A stretch of 20,251 bases of DNA from a virus. The notes below the pieces were generated by a model that did not search any database, was not told the origin of the DNA, and saw only the letters and a program-made list of their open reading frames with translations. The stretch's first letter is position 1, and the number at the start of each line of letters is the position of its first letter. Where the stretch lies: positions 1 to 20,251 of the IMG/VR virus record IMGVR_UViG_3300033571_012196; one strand, 5' to 3'. Positions 4,950 through 20,251 of this stretch are shown here, piece after piece. Position numbers and translations under genes: made by a program.

Positions 4950-5558
4950 ATGAATAGACCTACTAGCGGAGCCATCGAGAAAATCATTAGCGTTGCTGTA
5001 GCGGCTATATTTTTATCAGCATTTTCTGCTGCAACGCAGAACTCAAGTGCTGAAGAGATTGCCAAGATAAAACAACAAGAAGTAAAAACTCAGGCGGATA
5101 TAGAAGCCGAGATTGAAAAGCAAAGACAGAAGATTGCCAAACTCCAACTGCAGAAGTTCTCAGTCCAGAAGACTGCCTTCACAGATGTCGAGTTAGCACA
5201 GATGCTTGCCGCTGTTGGGTTTGAAGGAAAAGCCCTCAAGACTGCGTGGGCTGTCGTAAAGAAGGAAAGTAATGGTCGTCCTCTTGCCTTCAATGGCAAC
5301 ACACGGACTGGCGACTCTTCCTATGGCATATTCCAAATCAATATGATTGGCGGGCTAGGAGTTACACGCCGAGACAAGTATGATTTGGACAGCAACAAGG
5401 ATTTATTTGACGCCGTTATCAACGCACAGATTGCTTACCATATGAGCAATGGTGGCGAGGATTGGACTTCGTGGAAAATCTCAGCCCCTTACACAAACTC
5501 AGATGAGATAAGATTTAGACAGTGGTATGAAAAGTTCCCAGAAGGAGTAGTTGGATGA
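4950..5558 (+). CDS. Endolysin: membrane-anchored lysozyme/transglycosylase
   Basis: The 202-aa protein should cleave the glycan strands of peptidoglycan at lysis. ATG 4950 follows AAAGGAAAC. Residues 11-29 (IISVAVAAIFLSAFSAAT) form an N-terminal hydrophobic signal or signal-anchor helix, followed by a charged coiled-coil linker (about 33-70, EEIAKIKQQEVKTQADIE onward). The catalytic domain runs from about 78 to 180: VVKKESNGRP provides the likely catalytic E106, and SYGIFQIN (124-131) is the typical motif of lysozyme-fold transglycosylase (SLT/GH23-like) domains; NAQIAY follows. The anchor suggests Sec export, with either a SAR-type or a tethered endolysin (inference). It is translationally coupled (ATGA) to the peptidoglycan-binding partner at 5555. 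Confidence 0.85.
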   Translation: MNRPTSGAIEKIISVAVAAIFLSAFSAATQNSSAEEIAKIKQQEVKTQADIEAEIEKQRQKIAKLQLQKFSVQKTAFTDVELAQMLAAVGFEGKALKTAWAVVKKESNGRPLAFNGNTRTGDSSYGIFQINMIGGLGVTRRDKYDLDSNKDLFDAVINAQIAYHMSNGGEDWTSWKISAPYTNSDEIRFRQWYEKFPEGVVG

Positions 5559-11000: not shown

Positions 11001-12764
11001 GTGAAAAAGACTAGGAGTAAAACATTGGGCGTATTTGTCCGCAAGGATGGCTTACCAGAGCCAGAGAAAACTCCTGTCCCTAAGAGCAAGCCTAAAAAAT
11101 CAACTCGTAAATCAACTCGGTCAACACAAGTTGTATTTAATGCGCCTCCTAAAGTAAGTGGTGCTGCATCAATCTTTCTAAACAATTCTGCACAGTCTGT
11201 TGCATACTCGGCACCAAGAACTCTTACAGCAGCAGCAGTACAAATAAAAGTAAATGATAAAGGCGAGTCTGAACAATTCAAACTTCGTCGCTCTGCAGCA
11301 TCATCATCTTGGCAAGCAGAGGCTTGGGAGTATTACGACGCAATTGGTGAAGTGAAGTATGCCTTCAACCTTGTTGCATCTGTTGTATCTCGTATTCGTA
11401 TTTATGCAGCAGTAATAGATAACCCTTCAGAGGCACCAGCATCAGTTCGTGACTCTTCTAAAATTGAGCCACGTCTTGCTGCTGCAGCAGAGCGTGCACT
11501 TGCTCGTCTTGATTCTGCATACGGCGGACAGGCTGGTCTTCTAAAAGATGCAGCACTGAATCTTTCAGTTGCTGGTGAATGTTATTTAGTTCAAATGCCA
11601 GAGTTGCGTGGAAGCGGACTACCTGAGTCTTGGGATATTCGCTCTGTAGATGAAATTCTTGCTGATGCTCGCGGTGGCTTTAATGTTATTAGTCGTCGTG
11701 AACAAAATAGCGGTCAAGGAATGGTTGGCGTACAGAAACTTGCTAACAAAGCATTCGTAGGACGCATCTGGCGTTCACACCCACGCTATTCAGATGAGGC
11801 AGACTCATCACTTCGTGGATTACTAGACCTTTGTGCAGAACTACTTCTCCTCAACAGAACATTCCGTGCAACAGCACGCTCTCGCCTAAATGCTGGTGCT
11901 CTTTACTTACCAGACGGACTCTCTGTTGCTGCACAAGGCGACCCAGACTATCCATACGATACTGATAGTGAATTAAATCCTGGCTTTACAGCAGAGGAAG
12001 CAGAAGATGAGTTTGAAGAACAACTCATTGATGCAATGACAACTCCAATTCGTGATGAGGAGTCTGCATCTGCTGTTGTTCCACTTATTATTCGTGGTCC
12101 TGCTGAACTTGGTGACAAGATTAAGCAATTTAAGTTTGAGCGTTCGTTCGACCCTGCGTTAGCGCAACGTGCAGACCGTGTTCTAGAACGTATCCTTCAA
12201 GGTCTAGATGTTCCAAAGGATGTAGTAACTGGTCTGGCTAATGTGAAATACTCGAACGCTCTTCAAATTGATGAAGCGCTATACAAAGCACATATCGAAC
12301 CACTTATGTTGCTTATTGCTGATGCTTTAACAATTGTCTATCTACGTCCTTACTTAGAGGCACAAGGATTTAGCCCGTCAGACGTTGAGAAGATAGTTGT
12401 TTGGTATGACCCATCAGCAGTTTCAACTCGCAATGACCGTGCAGCAGATGCTGACGCAGGATTTGACCGCGGAGCAGTCTCCCTACAGACATGGCGTCGC
12501 GCTCATGGGTTCTCTGATGCAGATGCACCTACCCCAAACGAGTTAGCAATTCGTATGCTCTCTGAAAAGGGAATGATTACTCCTGAACTTACAGAAGCAA
12601 TGCTCAGTTCTATTGCTCCAGAGTTAATGAACGCGGTGAAACAATCACAGCAAGCAGCATCTGTTGGTCCACTACCCCCAGAAGTTCAACAAGTATTAGA
12701 GCAAGCAACAAATCCTGGAGGTGAGAGCGTTGAGCAAAACAATCAGCCAGACACCAGCGCCTAA
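11001..12764 (+). CDS. Portal protein
   Basis: The 587-aa protein is the dodecameric portal through which DNA enters and leaves the capsid (family knowledge). The start is GTG 11001, without a clear ribosome-binding site but directly after the previous gene. Recognisable blocks: WEYYDAIGEVKYAFNLVASV (about 107-127); NRTFRATARSRLNAGALYLP (285-304); RVLERILQGLDVPKDVVTGL (from about 393, V404-P405), followed by NVKYSNALQIDEALYKAHIE and a hydrophobic PLMLLIADALTIVYLRPYLE. The N-terminus (1-90) is basic and low complexity. Family size and pattern fit siphophage portals. It overlaps the next gene by 35 nt. Codon use shifts here toward GCA for Ala and CGT for Arg compared with the preceding small genes. 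Confidence 0.88.
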   Translation: MKKTRSKTLGVFVRKDGLPEPEKTPVPKSKPKKSTRKSTRSTQVVFNAPPKVSGAASIFLNNSAQSVAYSAPRTLTAAAVQIKVNDKGESEQFKLRRSAASSSWQAEAWEYYDAIGEVKYAFNLVASVVSRIRIYAAVIDNPSEAPASVRDSSKIEPRLAAAAERALARLDSAYGGQAGLLKDAALNLSVAGECYLVQMPELRGSGLPESWDIRSVDEILADARGGFNVISRREQNSGQGMVGVQKLANKAFVGRIWRSHPRYSDEADSSLRGLLDLCAELLLLNRTFRATARSRLNAGALYLPDGLSVAAQGDPDYPYDTDSELNPGFTAEEAEDEFEEQLIDAMTTPIRDEESASAVVPLIIRGPAELGDKIKQFKFERSFDPALAQRADRVLERILQGLDVPKDVVTGLANVKYSNALQIDEALYKAHIEPLMLLIADALTIVYLRPYLEAQGFSPSDVEKIVVWYDPSAVSTRNDRAADADAGFDRGAVSLQTWRRAHGFSDADAPTPNELAIRMLSEKGMITPELTEAMLSSIAPELMNAVKQSQQAASVGPLPPEVQQVLEQATNPGGESVEQNNQPDTSA

Positions 12765-13692
12765 GTCCGACAAGAAGATTGGTTCTTCTAAGAACTCAAA
12801 GAACTCTGCTTCAGGAACAAAAAAAGCACGAACAATAAAATTTTCTGCTGCAACAGAAGCATCTCTTAAAGAAAAAGTAGCAAAGCACAACGAGAAAGCG
12901 CCAGATGGTCGCAGAGCCTCTCTTGGAATGCTTAAGGCTGTTTACCGCCGTGGTGCAGGAGCATTTTCTACATCTCACCGCCCTGGGATGGACCGCAATC
13001 AATGGGCTATGGCTCGTGTTAATGCTTATCTAAAACTTTTGAAGTCTGGCAAGCCATCTAATGCTGCATATAAATCAGACAATGATTTACTTCCTGCAAG
13101 CCACCCACGTTCGACAAAGAAGTCAGCATCTATTACTGCATCTGGATTAGTTCCAGAAGAGCAGGAGTTAGCAGGTGCTTTGATTGAGATAGCAGATAAG
13201 TATGGAAAGTTTAATGAAGATAGCACTGGCATTTGGGCTGGATACACTCCTGCAGCAGAGAATGAAGTAAGAGAGATTGGCGTTACTTGTGCCAACTGCG
13301 TTCTTTATATTGGCGGCTCTGAGTGCAAGATTATTGCACTACCAGTAGAGCCAGAAGGAAAGTGTCGTTTTGCAGTTATTCCTGAAGGAGTTGTCTCAGG
13401 AAAAACTGATTACAAAGATATTCAAAATGAAATTGAAGATTATATTTTAGAAGAAGAACTTAGTGTAGAACTAAAAAGTAAAGAAGAATACGAGTATGCC
13501 GAAGACGCTATTCTTGCTATGACAGAATATTCTTGCCTAGGTTATGAAGTTGAGCCAGCAATTAGAGCAAGTTGGTTACGCGGAGTCCGCAACGGGGAAG
13601 ATGCATTCTTAAGAGCATCACTTCTTGCTTCTTTGGGATATGAAAGTCTAGACGCAGATTTACTACCAGTGATTGAGGAAGATAATGAGTAG
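12730..13692 (+). CDS. Minor structural/assembly protein candidate with Cys cluster, 320 aa
   Basis: The start is probably TTG 12730, because GGAGGTGA (12717-12724) sits at the ideal distance; GTG 12721 is also in frame but overlaps that site. After a Lys/Ser-rich N-terminus comes a block seen in phage proteins near portals (AVYRRGAGAFSTSHRPGMDR then NQWAMARVNAYLKLL). The motif DLLPASHPRST follows at 119-129. The C-terminal half has YGKFNEDSTGIWAGY and four cysteines (C187, C190, C199, C212) in VTCANCVLYIGGSEC...KC, followed by RFAVIPEG, resembling a small metal or iron-sulfur site. The far C-terminus is acidic. It overlaps the giant gene by 8 nt. The exact role is unknown. Confidence 0.75.
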   Translation: MSKTISQTPAPKSDKKIGSSKNSKNSASGTKKARTIKFSAATEASLKEKVAKHNEKAPDGRRASLGMLKAVYRRGAGAFSTSHRPGMDRNQWAMARVNAYLKLLKSGKPSNAAYKSDNDLLPASHPRSTKKSASITASGLVPEEQELAGALIEIADKYGKFNEDSTGIWAGYTPAAENEVREIGVTCANCVLYIGGSECKIIALPVEPEGKCRFAVIPEGVVSGKTDYKDIQNEIEDYILEEELSVELKSKEEYEYAEDAILAMTEYSCLGYEVEPAIRASWLRGVRNGEDAFLRASLLASLGYESLDADLLPVIEEDNE

Positions 13693-16600
13693 AGTTCGTC
13701 GCTTAAGTTATGCCATTGACCTACAAGGTCGTCGTGCTAACTCTATGCAACAGGCTTCTCGCTTACGCGATACAGCCCTAACACTCATTGAAACAGCAAA
13801 TCAAAATGCATCTATATCTCGTAGAGTTACAAAGAAAGCAGCATTTACTGTAGTTCTTCGCTCTTTAGAGAAGACACGCAATCTTCCGTTCTCACTAAGA
13901 GAGCATATGGCGATGAAAGAACTATCTCGCTACATTAGCCTTGCTCAAACAGATAAAATTGAATCACTCACTCTTTCTCATACTGACCTTCTTCCTATCT
14001 CTCACCCACGCTCTACCCGTGAGCATTCTCTTACAGCGTCAGCACTTCGCTTAACAAAATCACGCTGGTATGCAGATGACCCACGCATTACAGATGAACG
14101 TGCCAGAGTAATTCTTGCTTCTGCTTTTTCAGCAGAGCCAGGTTCTGTAGAACACACTTACTACTCATCAATTCTTTCTGGACTATCTCAGGGAATGATT
14201 CCTGCAGATGCTCTTATTGCAGCAGGTAATCCTTTCTCTGGTAAAAATTCTTCAGCAGAACGTTCACTTCGTGCTCGCTTGCAGCGCCGTGACCGCGAAG
14301 GAAAGTTCGCATTCATGGGTGGTGGACTAAGTGCACTTGTTCGTAGAGCAAATGGTCAAGTATTTAACCTTGTTGGTCGTCCTGTTATTGATGGACCAAA
14401 TGGTGATGATATTCAGATGGAACTTCCTAATGGAAAGATTGTAAATATTCCTGCATCAAAAGGTATGTTTACAAAAGCAATCATCAATCAGACTTCTGAC
14501 GGATTTAGCAAGAACCCTGCAAAGGCAGCAACAACAAGCAACATCATTAACGAATCAGATTTAGTTTTTGTTGACGCCCCTAATGGCTGGAACAAAATTG
14601 CTGAAAATGTTTGGTCAAATGGTTCTTGGGAAGCATCTAAAGGAAAAGATGGCAATTTTATAATTGATAGAGATGCTAATAATGGAAAAAGAGAAGTAAT
14701 TAAAGGTAATTTCTCCGACTGGGAAGATGTTCTTGATGGTATTGCTGATTATGAAGAAAAAGGCGATAAGAAAAAAGCAACTCTTCCTGAGTCAGAACAA
14801 AAGCCTAAGGCTCAAGTTCCAAATGGTGGAGATGGCGAAGGACCAAAGGGTCCTAAGAAGTTTGAGTTTGAATATCCTCAGGGTGCATACAAGATTCAGC
14901 AAGGAAAAGAATATGACCCAGAAGGTCGTATTGATGAAGAGTCAACAGATTTTACTGATGACCCTGTAGAACTTGCTCAGATGCAAGATGTTCGTGACCT
15001 TATTAATGGATTAGAACAAGCAGTTCTTCCTCAAGGTAATAACGAGAATGCTTTTGGATATGGTGCACTTCGTTTTAATCGCGGAGATGAATTAGTACCT
15101 GCAGATGCAATCTATAACGCTCTCAAAGAGGCTGGGGAAGATGCTGACCTTGAGTTGGCACGCATTTACGATAAGGGACTTGACTCAAACGCTAATGAGA
15201 ACGCTCTTATTGATTCTCGTAAGGGTGCAGAGTCTGTCGGACAAGCATCTCCTAAACTTGAAGAATCATTTAAGCGTATTACAGAAGAAGGAACTCCTGA
15301 TGTTGCACCTGCTGCAATAGAAGAGCCTTTTGTAGAAGAGCAAAGAGACCTAACTCCTCTTCCACCACTTCTAGATGGTATGTCAGAAACAGAAGTTGCT
15401 CGTTTCGTTGAGACAAAAGACCACACTCCTTTCCTTCCAAAAAATGAAGACATTCAAATGCCAGAGGGATATAACACTCTTAATCCAGAACCGTTCCAGT
15501 CATGGCAAGAAGTAACACCAGATAATCCAAGTGATGTTCTTCCAGAAGGTTTCTCAGATAATCCTGTATTTCTATCTCAACTTCCTAAGAGCGAACTTCT
15601 CTCTGAACTCCGCCGCTCCATCGAGCCAGGAAATGAAGCACCAGGTTATGGCGCTATATCTTTAGAAACAGAAGATGGAGAAAAGTTCACTGCTAACGTT
15701 CCAGGAGAAGCAATTCGTGATGCTCTTCAGTTACAAGGTGTAGATACAAACGCAGAGATTAAAAAGATTGCTGATGAAGGCTTTGTCGGTCAAGAAGATG
15801 AGAAGCAGAAAGCAACTCTTCCAACTGATGAGCCAGTTGCAGAACTTCCTCTAGATATTCCTGTAGAGAAGAAGCCAATGAATGCTTATGAGCGTTTGAT
15901 GGCAGAGAATCAAGCAGCAAGAGACGCTGTTGAAAATCGTAAAGCAGAACTTGATAAGGCTGCTGCAGACCGTGTAGATGAGCAGGGTCGTAATGTTCCC
16001 GAAGGCTGGGGAATTGAAAGAAAGAATAAGCCTTTCTTTGGTGCACTAGATAGACCAGAAAACCACTTTAACGTTTACGGACGTAATAATTTTGAAGCCC
16101 GTGTTGATGCAAACGGAAAGATTACTCTCAAAGATAATAACAACCTTCTTGAGGCTAAGACATATGACTCATGGGAAGAACTACAAGCAGACTTCGATGC
16201 TCGTAAAGCAGAATACGCTGCAGCCTCTCGTGCACAGATTAAAGAGTGGGCAAAGGGATTTGGTTTCTCTGACGAGCAAGTAAACGCATTTGATTCAATG
16301 ACTGAGCAAGAGATTGCTGACTTCTTTGCTAACCCAGAAAACCATACACCAGAGTATGCAAGCGCTTTAGATGATGCTGATACTTCATGGGCTGTTGACC
16401 TTCCAAACAATGCACAGAAGCAACGCTGGAATAACTTTAGAAAGAATGAACGCATTGCAGAACACGCTGGAGATTTCCCAGATGGAAATGTTCCTCAGGC
16501 AGAACTTCCAGCAAAAGCAAACACACCTGAGCAAATTTCAGGAGTGCCTCAGTTTAAGAGAATAGACGAAGACCCTAACTATTTACCAGGTGTTAGTGGT

Positions 16601-19600
16601 CCAAATGTTCCAGGAAGAGAAAAGAAAACTGTCTCTGCTGAAGCACCTAATGATTTTGAAGTAGATTCGATTGAAGAAGTTCCAGACGGTCTTGCTGAAT
16701 ATCCAAAGCCAGCAGATGTCGCTCCAGCAGATGGTCCTAACGGTCCATATCGCATTAAGGTTAAAGTTACTGACTTACAGCCAGGAGATATCACTGTTGG
16801 TGACCACTTTGTTATTGAAGCAATTGGCGAGAAGGTTCCAGGAACTGACCGAGTAAAGATTAAGGGTCACTATCCAGGGCACGTCTCACAAGATACAAAG
16901 CAGTGGAATGATTACCGTGAAATTGAAGTTATCCGTGGTGCTGTTGCACCAGAGGCTGGAGAACTACCTGTTCTTAGTAAGCCAAAGGAACAAGAGTTTG
17001 GAAAGCGTAAGCGTAATGCAGATGGTTCTTGGGGATTTGCAGACCCAGCAAACCAAGAAGCGTTTGATGCTGCAATGGCAGAATACAACGCACGTCTAGA
17101 TGAAGCGAAGAAGCGTTTCCCAGACCCAACATCTCCTTCTAACCAGCCACAACGCACAATTGTTCGTGCTGCTGATTTGAAACCTGGTGATGTAACTACT
17201 GACCCTAAGAAGGGTCACTTCGTAATTGAAAGAACATTTGTTGATGAAACAACAAAGCCAGGATTTGTTAGCGTTGAGGGTTACTACCCAGGACATACTT
17301 CACAACGTAAAGAGTGGAGAGTAGATACTCAGATTGACGTTCTTCGTAACGTCGAGGCACCTGCAAAGGGAGACCTACCTGAACTACATCGCCCTAATAA
17401 GGTTGTAAATGGTAAGTGGATTCCAGATAACGATGCTGCAAAGAATGAAGAGTGGCAAAAGCAGATTGATGAAGCCGCTGCTCGTTGGCAAGCACCAGAA
17501 AATCTTCCACTGGTTGAAAATAATGAACAAACACCAGAGGCTGAAAAAGATATTCCAAATGTTGTTGCAGTAAAGCGTCCTGCAGCACCTCAGCGGCCAG
17601 CAATGCCAGCATTCCAAGGTGATTGGGCTGCTATTGCTCGTGAAGCAGGTGGAGATTGGAATAAGTTTAAGGAACTTCTTAAAGGAAAGACTCTTGTCTT
17701 CTTTGACTTTGAAACAACAGGACTAAAAGTTGGCGATGGCGACGAGCCATGGCAGATTGGTGCTGTAAAAGTTGTTGATGGAAAGATTGTAGAACGTAAG
17801 AACATCTACATGAACCCAGGGCGCTCTATTGACGGCACTTTTGCTGCTGGAGATAAAGATGGAGTTCCAAATGCTGTTGATGCAGATGGAAATAAACTTA
17901 CAGATGAATTTTTAGCACAGCAGCAAGACCAGAAGGCAGCATTTGAAGAGTTTCTTGCTTGGGCAGGGCCAGATGCACTCTTTGGTGCACACAATGTTGT
18001 ATTTGATGACATGGTTGCACGCCATCTAGCCGACAAGCACGGTGTTGATTTCCGTCCTGCTGGTTATGTAGACACAATGGTAATGGCACGAGATATTTTT
18101 AAGAACCAAGAGGGTGAAAACAAGCCAGCCAATAATAAACTTGTTGGTCTTGCAGAACATCTAGATGTAGAACTTACAAATGCTCACTCAGCAGATGCTG
18201 ACTCAGAAGCAACAGCAAATGTCTTTGGAAAACTTGTTGATAAGGCAATTGAACTTGATGCAGGTAAAGACCTTCTTGATGTTGATGCTCGTGAAGAAGA
18301 ATATGTTAAGAAACTTGATGACTACAACATCCGTCTTGCTCATTACGAGACAGATATTGCAAACTTTGCTGCTGTTAAGGCAATGAACGATGCATTCAAT
18401 GGTAAAGAAGTTAAACTTGATGATGTTGTTACAGAAGCAAAGGGTGTTGACCCTGTTGACCCTGAAGGAATCTCTCTAGGTCAAGTTGGTAATGAGTTTG
18501 AACAGCCAGTAGAGAAGAATGATGTTGTAGTCCTTGACTTCACACCTAATGCTGACTATCCAAAGGGCAAGATGCGTCTTATGCCTAAGGAATGGATTCT
18601 CAATGATGAGAATACCTTCCTTATGGATAGAGAAGATGCTCGTCTACGCAATCTTCTTCCTGGAGACTTCATGTCTTCTAAAGATGGAAATACTGTTTGG
18701 CAAGTAGTCGCAGTTCGCGCTGGTGAAGACTTCATGCTTGATGCAGGAAAGGTTCGCGTTTATCGCCGTAACGTAGATACAGGCGAAATGAGCACATACG
18801 AAAACTTCCACGGAATGCGTGCTGACGGAGTTCGCCGTCCTAAGAACCCTGCTGATTTGAATATCCCAGATACAGTCGGACCAGAAGATACTTCTTATGT
18901 TGCTAATAAGGAAGACCTTGCATCTGCTCTAGAGAACAAAGAGTTTAGTTCTGATGTTATGGAAAAGATTGACTATCCAATTGGAGCAGGTCGTATCTTT
19001 ATCAAGAAGGCTGAAGATGGAAAGTTTGCTCTTAAGGCTGTCTTCTTTGATGAAGAAGGAAATGAAGCCTACATAGTTGAAGATACTTACCGCACAGCCG
19101 CTGGGGCACACGCAGAAGGCCGTGCTCTTCTAGATGCTCACGTTAATGATTTGATTGCTGCAAAGCGCGAAGAGCAAGCAGAGCCAGCAGAATCACGTCC
19201 GAAGGATGTTCCTATTTCTCGCGGTGTTATTCCTGCAGGTGAAGACAATGCACCACAAATTATTGAAGTAGATAATCTTCCAGAAGAGTATCAAGGAAAC
19301 ATTCAAATCTCCGATAAGGGAATTGAAAAGCCTAACTACAGTTCTGAAGCAGTGCTCCAAGATAAAGATGGAGAAATGCTTGGACAACAGACAACAGAGC
19401 ATTCAAATAAGAAGGAAGCAGAGTCTGAAGGACGTGACTTCCTTAAGCGCATGATTGAGGCTCTAGAGGCTCAACTAGATGGTGCTATTGCAAAGCAAAA
19501 GAATGAAGGAGATGGAGGAGGACCTTCAAATCCTTCTAAACCATCTAAGCCTAAGAAAGAAAAAGAACTTTCTGAAGCAGACATTCGTGTTCTAGAAAAT

Positions 19601-20251
19601 AACGACTGGGTTGAAGAAAATGCTGGCGCTCTTGGAGATATGAGAGCCATTGAAGCAAAGGTAGGAGACTTCTTCTACAACCGATTCTTTAATCGCTATG
19701 AAGAGATTCGTGACATTAGATATATTGGAAATGTCAACGGTGTCTATAACCGCGTTGAGTTTGAAGTATTCAATGTTTACAACGGACAACTAGAGATGCG
19801 TTATTTTGAAGCAGACTCACCGCTTCGTAATATGCGTCGTCCTGGAATTGAAGACCAACTTACACCAGAGCGTGTATCAAAGGGTAAGGCAAGAGGAGGA
19901 CCTCGCGGTCTCGTTGCTCGTAAACCTCTTGAAGAAAGAATTCTTGCAAAAGACCGACCTATGGCTGGAAAAATTGGCGAAGATGCTGGATTCTTCGTTG
20001 CTCGTAACGGTGTTGCTTTGCAACCTGGAGATATTGTTCGTCACAAGGATGCAGGTAAAGATGCTAAGTGGGGCCGTGGCGTAGTAAAGATGCGTGTAGG
20101 TGCTCAGGTTGATGAAGGTGCAAAAGCACGAGGACTTGTTCGTGGTAAAGGTGCTGCTAAAAAGGTCATCATTGATGAATTGTGGATTCAATGGGAGAAC
20201 GAACAAGAAGAGTATGCTCTTAATCAAGGTGGACGACCTGCAAAGGCTCGC
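13685..20251 (+). CDS. Giant multidomain phage protein with embedded DEDDh exonuclease (3' truncated)
   Basis: ATG 13685, with GAGGAAG upstream, opens a frame without a stop to the window end: 2,189 codons visible. The N-terminal ~190 residues are helical and contain DLLPISHPRST (101-111), also present in the preceding protein. Residues ~200-262 read RRDREGKFAFMGGG, then a small beta module ending in PASKG. There follow paired modules: WE-type (about 300-359 and 775-840), GYGA-type (435-499, 636-700) and LxPGD-type (1024-1085, 1158-1222; looser copies near 1658, 1993 and 2112). Between them lie acidic, proline-rich linkers. Residues ~1334-1520 form a DEDDh 3'-5' exonuclease: D1341 and E1343 in DFETTG, D1441 in NVVFDD, H1501 and D1506 in HSADAD. 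Gene order puts it among virion or assembly genes; a role inside the capsid or ejected with DNA is inference. Confidence 0.9.
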   Translation, partial: MSRVRRLSYAIDLQGRRANSMQQASRLRDTALTLIETANQNASISRRVTKKAAFTVVLRSLEKTRNLPFSLREHMAMKELSRYISLAQTDKIESLTLSHTDLLPISHPRSTREHSLTASALRLTKSRWYADDPRITDERARVILASAFSAEPGSVEHTYYSSILSGLSQGMIPADALIAAGNPFSGKNSSAERSLRARLQRRDREGKFAFMGGGLSALVRRANGQVFNLVGRPVIDGPNGDDIQMELPNGKIVNIPASKGMFTKAIINQTSDGFSKNPAKAATTSNIINESDLVFVDAPNGWNKIAENVWSNGSWEASKGKDGNFIIDRDANNGKREVIKGNFSDWEDVLDGIADYEEKGDKKKATLPESEQKPKAQVPNGGDGEGPKGPKKFEFEYPQGAYKIQQGKEYDPEGRIDEESTDFTDDPVELAQMQDVRDLINGLEQAVLPQGNNENAFGYGALRFNRGDELVPADAIYNALKEAGEDADLELARIYDKGLDSNANENALIDSRKGAESVGQASPKLEESFKRITEEGTPDVAPAAIEEPFVEEQRDLTPLPPLLDGMSETEVARFVETKDHTPFLPKNEDIQMPEGYNTLNPEPFQSWQEVTPDNPSDVLPEGFSDNPVFLSQLPKSELLSELRRSIEPGNEAPGYGAISLETEDGEKFTANVPGEAIRDALQLQGVDTNAEIKKIADEGFVGQEDEKQKATLPTDEPVAELPLDIPVEKKPMNAYERLMAENQAARDAVENRKAELDKAAADRVDEQGRNVPEGWGIERKNKPFFGALDRPENHFNVYGRNNFEARVDANGKITLKDNNNLLEAKTYDSWEELQADFDARKAEYAAASRAQIKEWAKGFGFSDEQVNAFDSMTEQEIADFFANPENHTPEYASALDDADTSWAVDLPNNAQKQRWNNFRKNERIAEHAGDFPDGNVPQAELPAKANTPEQISGVPQFKRIDEDPNYLPGVSGPNVPGREKKTVSAEAPNDFEVDSIEEVPDGLAEYPKPADVAPADGPNGPYRIKVKVTDLQPGDITVGDHFVIEAIGEKVPGTDRVKIKGHYPGHVSQDTKQWNDYREIEVIRGAVAPEAGELPVLSKPKEQEFGKRKRNADGSWGFADPANQEAFDAAMAEYNARLDEAKKRFPDPTSPSNQPQRTIVRAADLKPGDVTTDPKKGHFVIERTFVDETTKPGFVSVEGYYPGHTSQRKEWRVDTQIDVLRNVEAPAKGDLPELHRPNKVVNGKWIPDNDAAKNEEWQKQIDEAAARWQAPENLPLVENNEQTPEAEKDIPNVVAVKRPAAPQRPAMPAFQGDWAAIAREAGGDWNKFKELLKGKTLVFFDFETTGLKVGDGDEPWQIGAVKVVDGKIVERKNIYMNPGRSIDGTFAAGDKDGVPNAVDADGNKLTDEFLAQQQDQKAAFEEFLAWAGPDALFGAHNVVFDDMVARHLADKHGVDFRPAGYVDTMVMARDIFKNQEGENKPANNKLVGLAEHLDVELTNAHSADADSEATANVFGKLVDKAIELDAGKDLLDVDAREEEYVKKLDDYNIRLAHYETDIANFAAVKAMNDAFNGKEVKLDDVVTEAKGVDPVDPEGISLGQVGNEFEQPVEKNDVVVLDFTPNADYPKGKMRLMPKEWILNDENTFLMDREDARLRNLLPGDFMSSKDGNTVWQVVAVRAGEDFMLDAGKVRVYRRNVDTGEMSTYENFHGMRADGVRRPKNPADLNIPDTVGPEDTSYVANKEDLASALENKEFSSDVMEKIDYPIGAGRIFIKKAEDGKFALKAVFFDEEGNEAYIVEDTYRTAAGAHAEGRALLDAHVNDLIAAKREEQAEPAESRPKDVPISRGVIPAGEDNAPQIIEVDNLPEEYQGNIQISDKGIEKPNYSSEAVLQDKDGEMLGQQTTEHSNKKEAESEGRDFLKRMIEALEAQLDGAIAKQKNEGDGGGPSNPSKPSKPKKEKELSEADIRVLENNDWVEENAGALGDMRAIEAKVGDFFYNRFFNRYEEIRDIRYIGNVNGVYNRVEFEVFNVYNGQLEMRYFEADSPLRNMRRPGIEDQLTPERVSKGKARGGPRGLVARKPLEERILAKDRPMAGKIGEDAGFFVARNGVALQPGDIVRHKDAGKDAKWGRGVVKMRVGAQVDEGAKARGLVRGKGAAKKVIIDELWIQWENEQEEYALNQGGRPAKAR
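14987..15181 (+). repeat. Protein module GYGA, copy 1 (residues 435-499)
   Basis: The module runs from DVRDLINGLEQAVLPQGN through FGYGALRF to ADAIYNALKEAGEDAD and ARIYDKGL. It aligns with the second copy at residues 636-700: L-x-x-L, P-GN, GYGA, d-G-e, A-I-x-x-A-L-x-x-x-G-x-D, I-x-D-x-G. It is a diverged internal duplication. Confidence 0.7.
15590..15784 (+). repeat. Protein module GYGA, copy 2 (residues 636-700)
   Basis: SELLSELRRSIEPGNEAPGY, GAISLETEDGEKFTANVPGE, AIRDALQLQGVDTNAEIKKI, ADEGF. It matches copy 1 in order and spacing. Confidence 0.7.
16754..16939 (+). repeat. Protein module LxPGD, copy A (residues 1024-1085)
   Basis: VTDLQPGDITVGDHFVIEAI, then VKIKGHYPGHVSQDTKQW and IEVIRG. 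It matches copy B in every block, including the GHYPGH/GYYPGH turn. Confidence 0.8.
17156..17350 (+). repeat. Protein module LxPGD, copy B (residues 1158-1222)
   Basis: AADLKPGDVTTDPKKGHFVI, then VSVEGYYPGHTSQRKEW and IDVLRN. It is a diverged tandem-type duplicate of copy A, separated by a lysine-rich linker, and lies immediately before the exonuclease domain region. The fold suggests a small beta barrel (inference). Confidence 0.8.
17684..18244 (+). other. Encoded DEDDh 3'-5' exonuclease domain (residues 1334-1520)
   Basis: The ExoI motif is KTLVFFDFETTGL (D1341, E1343). The ExoII motif is GAHNVVFDD (N1437, D1441). YVDTMVMARDIF and NKLVGLAEHLDVEL are the usual helices, and ExoIII is NAHSADADSEATA with H1501 five residues before D1506. 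All four acidic ligands and the catalytic His are present, so the domain should be active. The closest overall pattern is the DnaQ/PolC proofreading group, but no polymerase is attached. Confidence 0.9.

Follow-up and report, generated by a model that had tools for sequence, protein, structure and literature searches.

We propose that the giant protein encoded in this lake-virus window, by which we mean the entire 20,251-nucleotide stretch that was analyzed, is probably a phage polyvalent protein that is packaged in the head and injected into the host together with a DEDDh exonuclease payload. The initial annotation had suggested a virion-packaged nuclease from gene order, and that suggestion gains partial support from the position of the gene in relatives, a motif in the N-terminal module (N-module), and the ArdC-N and MPTase-PolyVal domains carried by some relatives. 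The portal gene and the features downstream of it are as follows.

11001 to 12764, plus strand: portal protein (phrog_776, E=6.5e-109; 74% identical to the DSL-LC01 portal; LTAAA at residue 75)
12721 to 13692, plus strand: 323-amino-acid (aa) DUF5824 protein (PF19141, E=3.4e-9; ITASG at residue 138; four-cysteine module)
13685 to 20251, plus strand: giant protein gene (2,189 codons, 3' end beyond the window)
13685 to 14479, plus strand: N-module, residues ~1 to 265 (alignments of 7 and of 19 to 20 relatives; ~197 IMG/VR relatives)
14030 to 14044, plus strand: LTASA motif, residues 116 to 120, a proposed prohead-protease site (conservation and head-gene enrichment)
14855 to 15199, plus strand: duplicated module copy 1, residues ~391 to 505
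15452 to 15802, plus strand: duplicated module copy 2, residues ~590 to 706
16493 to 19453, plus strand: exchangeable segment, residues ~937 to 1923 (comparison with L033)
16724 to 16996, plus strand: beta-rich repeat 1, residues ~1014 to 1104
17126 to 17407, plus strand: beta-rich repeat 2, residues ~1148 to 1241
17696 to 18226, plus strand: DEDDh exonuclease domain, residues 1338 to 1514 (RNase_T, phrog_192, alignment, fold match)
19454 to 20251, plus strand: C-terminal region, residues 1924 to 2189, common to members without the exonuclease (gene continues past the window)

Beginning with the ATG at position 13685, the frame comprises 2,189 codons with zero stops and reaches the last base of the window at 20251, which bears out the original description of an open frame of at least that length. 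Because the frame stays open to the end of this 20,251-base virus record, the 3' end of the gene is cut off, and because relatives are longer, several hundred C-terminal residues of the protein are probably missing. Residues 1 to 1427 are matched at 100% by another IMG/VR record of this virus (L002, 53 kb), which also ends within the giant gene. The initial annotation placed the gene next to the portal and the exonuclease between duplicated modules, and each statement holds in part. The portal does lie upstream, but the gene at 12721 to 13692 separates the two; duplicated modules do exist, but both beta-rich copies are N-terminal to the exonuclease. The 3' end of that intervening DUF5824 gene overlaps the giant gene start by 8 bases, and this overlap suggests coupled translation.

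Relatives of the N-module were found at ~197 loci in IMG/VR, and the complete proteins of the family span 1,939 to 4,611 aa, a range from which one 798-aa frame was left out. No near match to the window DNA was found among named phages. The nearest named phage, Actinomycetia phage DSL-LC01, is represented by a complete genome assembled from Dishui Lake metagenomic data, and its host is predicted to belong to the Actinomycetia (PMC10611076); the 3,289-aa homologue in this phage, WJZ48510, is annotated merely as a "hypothetical protein." The family belongs to DSL-LC01-like phages, whose predicted hosts are freshwater Actinomycetia. A scan of genome contigs with the N-module found no relative and hence pointed to no host genome or prophage. 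In DSL-LC01 and five long IMG/VR relatives, the giant gene occupies the stretch between the portal and maturation protease/major capsid protein genes; the window carries the portal upstream and stops short of any maturation protease or major capsid gene.

A short motif, [ILMV]TA[SAG][AG], recurs in the N-module, the portal, the major capsid protein of relatives, and the neighboring proteins. In the N-module it reads LTASA, which is conserved in one alignment (A1) and nearly invariant in another (A4). The head proteins of DSL-LC01 hold 8 copies in 7,391 aa against a single copy in the 30,838 aa encoded elsewhere, and 500 trials with shuffled head proteins gave a mean of 0.49 and a maximum of 3. 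Five further genomes (G004, G011, G018, G020, and G023) display a comparable contrast (Fisher p from 6e-3 to 2e-5), such that enrichment in head genes ranges from 7-fold to more than 30-fold across the six. We read this enrichment as support and not as proof, because the six genomes are related, which makes the tests nonindependent, and because the motif was picked after the window and DSL-LC01 had been viewed. One copy in the major capsid protein (ITAGADIPGYTAG) is kept in all six genomes; the placement of some other sites varies between genomes, with several, for example, in the protease gene of G023. On this enrichment, the motif is probably a prohead-protease site, in which case the giant protein would sit inside the capsid. 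We therefore propose the N-module (residues ~1 to 265) as a capsid-targeting and propeptide region. Comparison of the N-module with solved structures returned no convincing fold (best Foldseek E 0.14, best Z 4.8), and the matches covered the beta part at ~199 to 271 only.

The family reveals which segments of these proteins are fixed and which are exchanged. With hidden Markov models (HMMs) made for this analysis, the N-module was found in all members, the duplicated module in the longer proteins, and the cassette of beta repeats plus exonuclease in only part of the family. Members that lack this cassette include DSL-LC01, L032, L033, and L036, and the latter three are the window's nearest relatives by N-module (70 to 71%). 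The window and L033 are alike at residues 1 to 706, 727 to 936, and 1924 to 2189 and unlike between them, and L033 has an unrelated stretch of ~300 aa where the window carries residues ~937 to 1923. Swap boundaries are visible in comparisons of the window with L033, L036, and L037, and on the N-module tree the distribution of the exonuclease requires at least four gains or losses. The domains recognized across the family are the exonuclease, UvrD, ArdC-N, MPTase, WYL, and a weak PI3/PI4-kinase match; the exonuclease is the sole recognized domain in the window's 2,189 residues, which lack the C terminus and hold neither MPTase-PolyVal nor ArdC-N. The names ADP-ribosyltransferase and HipA-like kinase, given by eye to segments of DSL-LC01 and G004, were dropped because Pfam, PHROGs, and PDB sequence searches gave no support for them in DSL-LC01. 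We prefer to read the exonuclease as one exchangeable payload carried by an injected multienzyme protein.

Some of these domain combinations could also be taken to mean that the phage's own DNA is the target, inside the virion or during entry, with the enzyme trimming or readying ends for packaging, circularization, or recombination and a helicase helping in some relatives. In both G004 and L009, a UvrD/DEAD-type helicase comes after the exonuclease, and in L105 and L096 the exonuclease is joined with UvrD (E=1.6e-15), ArdC-N (E=5.9e-31), and MPTase-PolyVal (E=1.7e-29); the domains of L105 were read directly, and for L096 a two-member domain tally and a helicase HMM point to them. The giant gene is, moreover, close to the portal. 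The exonuclease is nevertheless absent from related phages that share these portal, terminase, and capsid genes, so packaging does not need it, and we regard action on the phage's own DNA as unlikely.

The domain itself is intact. The Pfam RNase_T profile matches residues 1338 to 1514 over its full length (164/164 positions; E=1e-17; 65.6 bits against a cutoff of 24), and phrog_192 matches with an E of 1e-31. In an AlphaFold model of the beta-repeat/exonuclease cassette, confidence is high across the exonuclease, and the modeled domain resembles the PolC and DinG exonucleases (Z ~21) and Pol III epsilon (Z ~19), with TM scores of 0.82 to 0.84 (by target length) to epsilon and DnaQ; the predicted fold is RNase H-like, of the DnaQ type. 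The full-length profile match and this predicted fold confirm that the exonuclease is, as first described, complete and DnaQ type. All five residues named as catalytic (D1341, E1343, D1441, H1501, and D1506) are correct, and none varies across 16 aligned sequences, of which those other than the window are 31 to 67% identical to it. The domain is under purifying selection, with dN/dS values of 0.07 to 0.12 among relatives and 0.22 to 0.32 between the window and its relatives. Its catalytic activity and its substrate are what we infer from here on. A further exonuclease match lies inside a 3,158-aa open frame in the record of L094 (G022, C1:11872-12366); by its coordinates it may sit apart from the L094 giant gene, which would point to a second giant gene or to an artifact of assembly.

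The resemblance to PolC, DinG, and Pol III epsilon would also suit a phage replication or repair enzyme, such as a proofreading subunit freed by proteolysis, whose fusion into a structural gene is accidental, and the DNA polymerase of DSL-LC01 is annotated as Pol I. An RNase_T search of the complete DSL-LC01 genome and of the long relatives G011, G019, and G020 returned zero matches, however, which indicates that the exonuclease is not required for basic replication. Its repeated gain or loss within the family likewise speaks against such a role, and we give this explanation little credence. Least probable of all is a head scaffold or tape-measure-like structural protein that is never injected and whose enzyme domains are vestigial: the very long frame in a structural cluster and the repeated modules would fit, but no catalytic residue varies among 16 homologues, dN/dS values are low, and DSL-LC01 and G004 each encode a separate tape measure protein, for which reason we rejected the giant protein as the tape measure itself.

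We return to an injected polyvalent protein, for which we infer late expression, cleavage at the motif, packaging, and ejection. The giant protein would be made late, together with the head genes, and the ~117 residues of the N-module up to LTASA would steer it into the prohead, where the maturation protease would cut it at that site. The packaged protein would then be ejected with the phage DNA, and its DEDDh payload would act as a 3'-5' exonuclease that trims DNA or oligonucleotide ends in the newly infected cell. Candidate substrates include host or competitor DNA, single-stranded DNA, short oligonucleotides made by defense systems, and the termini of the incoming genome. Among the purposes suggested at the outset (trimming or protecting DNA ends, attacking host or competitor DNA on entry, or processing packaging ends), a part in virion assembly is unlikely, given that the giant protein occurs without the exonuclease in close relatives; the others are all candidates. 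Since the exonuclease is dispensable within the family, we think counterdefense or the takeover of host nucleic acids likelier than processing of the phage's own ends. The scheme makes a simple prediction, cleavage at TA[SAG][AG], and, if it is true, the N-module acts as a signal for loading into the head, of which none has been described for this phage group.

The genes around the giant gene have features of their own. The C-terminal four-cysteine module of the DUF5824 protein is 64% identical to the C terminus encoded by a DSL-LC01 gene annotated as capsid maturation protease. The protein also has matches among genes of Roseobacter phages CRP-821 and CRP-823 that carry a major capsid protein annotation, and in records of 183 Salinibacter phages (Salinibacter ruber); no mention of DUF5824 was found in the literature searched. 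At four loci (L008:6494-7597, L009:8332-9993, L013:8191-9414, and L006:9260-10399), the gene between the portal and the giant gene fuses a ferritin/Dps-like domain to a motif-bearing region, with DUF5824 recognized in L008, L009, and L013, and its product is possibly a DNA-protecting or iron-handling head protein. Farther upstream, the window encodes a dual-specificity phosphatase domain (positions 2147 to 2755; DSPc, E=2.3e-11) and a lysozyme-like SLT_3 domain (positions 4950 to 5558; E=7.6e-15). Because the neighboring DUF5824 and ferritin-like proteins bear the motif, head loading of this kind may involve more than one protein. We tentatively extend this to a modular delivery scheme, in which an N-terminal signal common to these proteins and cut at TA[SAG][AG] could load swappable effectors, including an exonuclease-helicase machine and, via the DUF5824 neighbors, a ferritin/Dps-like domain, into the head and thence into the host.

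Among the closest known parallels to the reading we prefer are the phage polyvalent proteins of Iyer et al. (2017), for which those authors predict capsid packaging and injection along with the DNA; ArdC-N and MPTase-PolyVal are among their hallmark domains (PMC5512222). The present proteins likewise form a giant multidomain family with unrelated enzyme domains in a head-gene neighborhood, with relatives that carry ArdC-N, MPTase-PolyVal, and UvrD; unlike the proteins described there, they add the N-module and the proposed cleavage motif, and the part seen in the window has no MPTase. A DEDDh payload appears to be undescribed in that study, since its main text uses "exonuclease" once and "DnaQ" never, and no direct precedent for virion-associated DnaQ exonucleases was evident from the titles and abstracts in our literature search. 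DSL-LC01 WJZ48510 shares with the window protein the N-module, the place between the portal and the maturation protease seen in relatives, and residues 395 to 499, and differs in having no exonuclease and different middle segments. The PolC and DinG exonucleases share the fold and the DEDDh motifs (Z ~21), whereas the exonuclease described here comes without a polymerase or the DinG helicase and is embedded in a giant head-cluster protein. The head proteins of SPN3US have cleaved N-terminal propeptides of mostly 111 to 254 residues (PMC10052503), a length to which the proposed ~117-residue propeptide is comparable; the internal or ejected head proteins of SPN3US and T4 bear an AXE motif where the giant protein has TA[SAG][AG], and the proposed likeness is one of propeptide processing. 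If our reading is true, a DEDDh exonuclease joins the injected phage enzymes, among which the virion RNA polymerase of N4, a giant enzyme that is packaged in the head and injected (PMC5512222), resembles the giant protein by description and differs in that its payload is an RNA polymerase, not an exonuclease.
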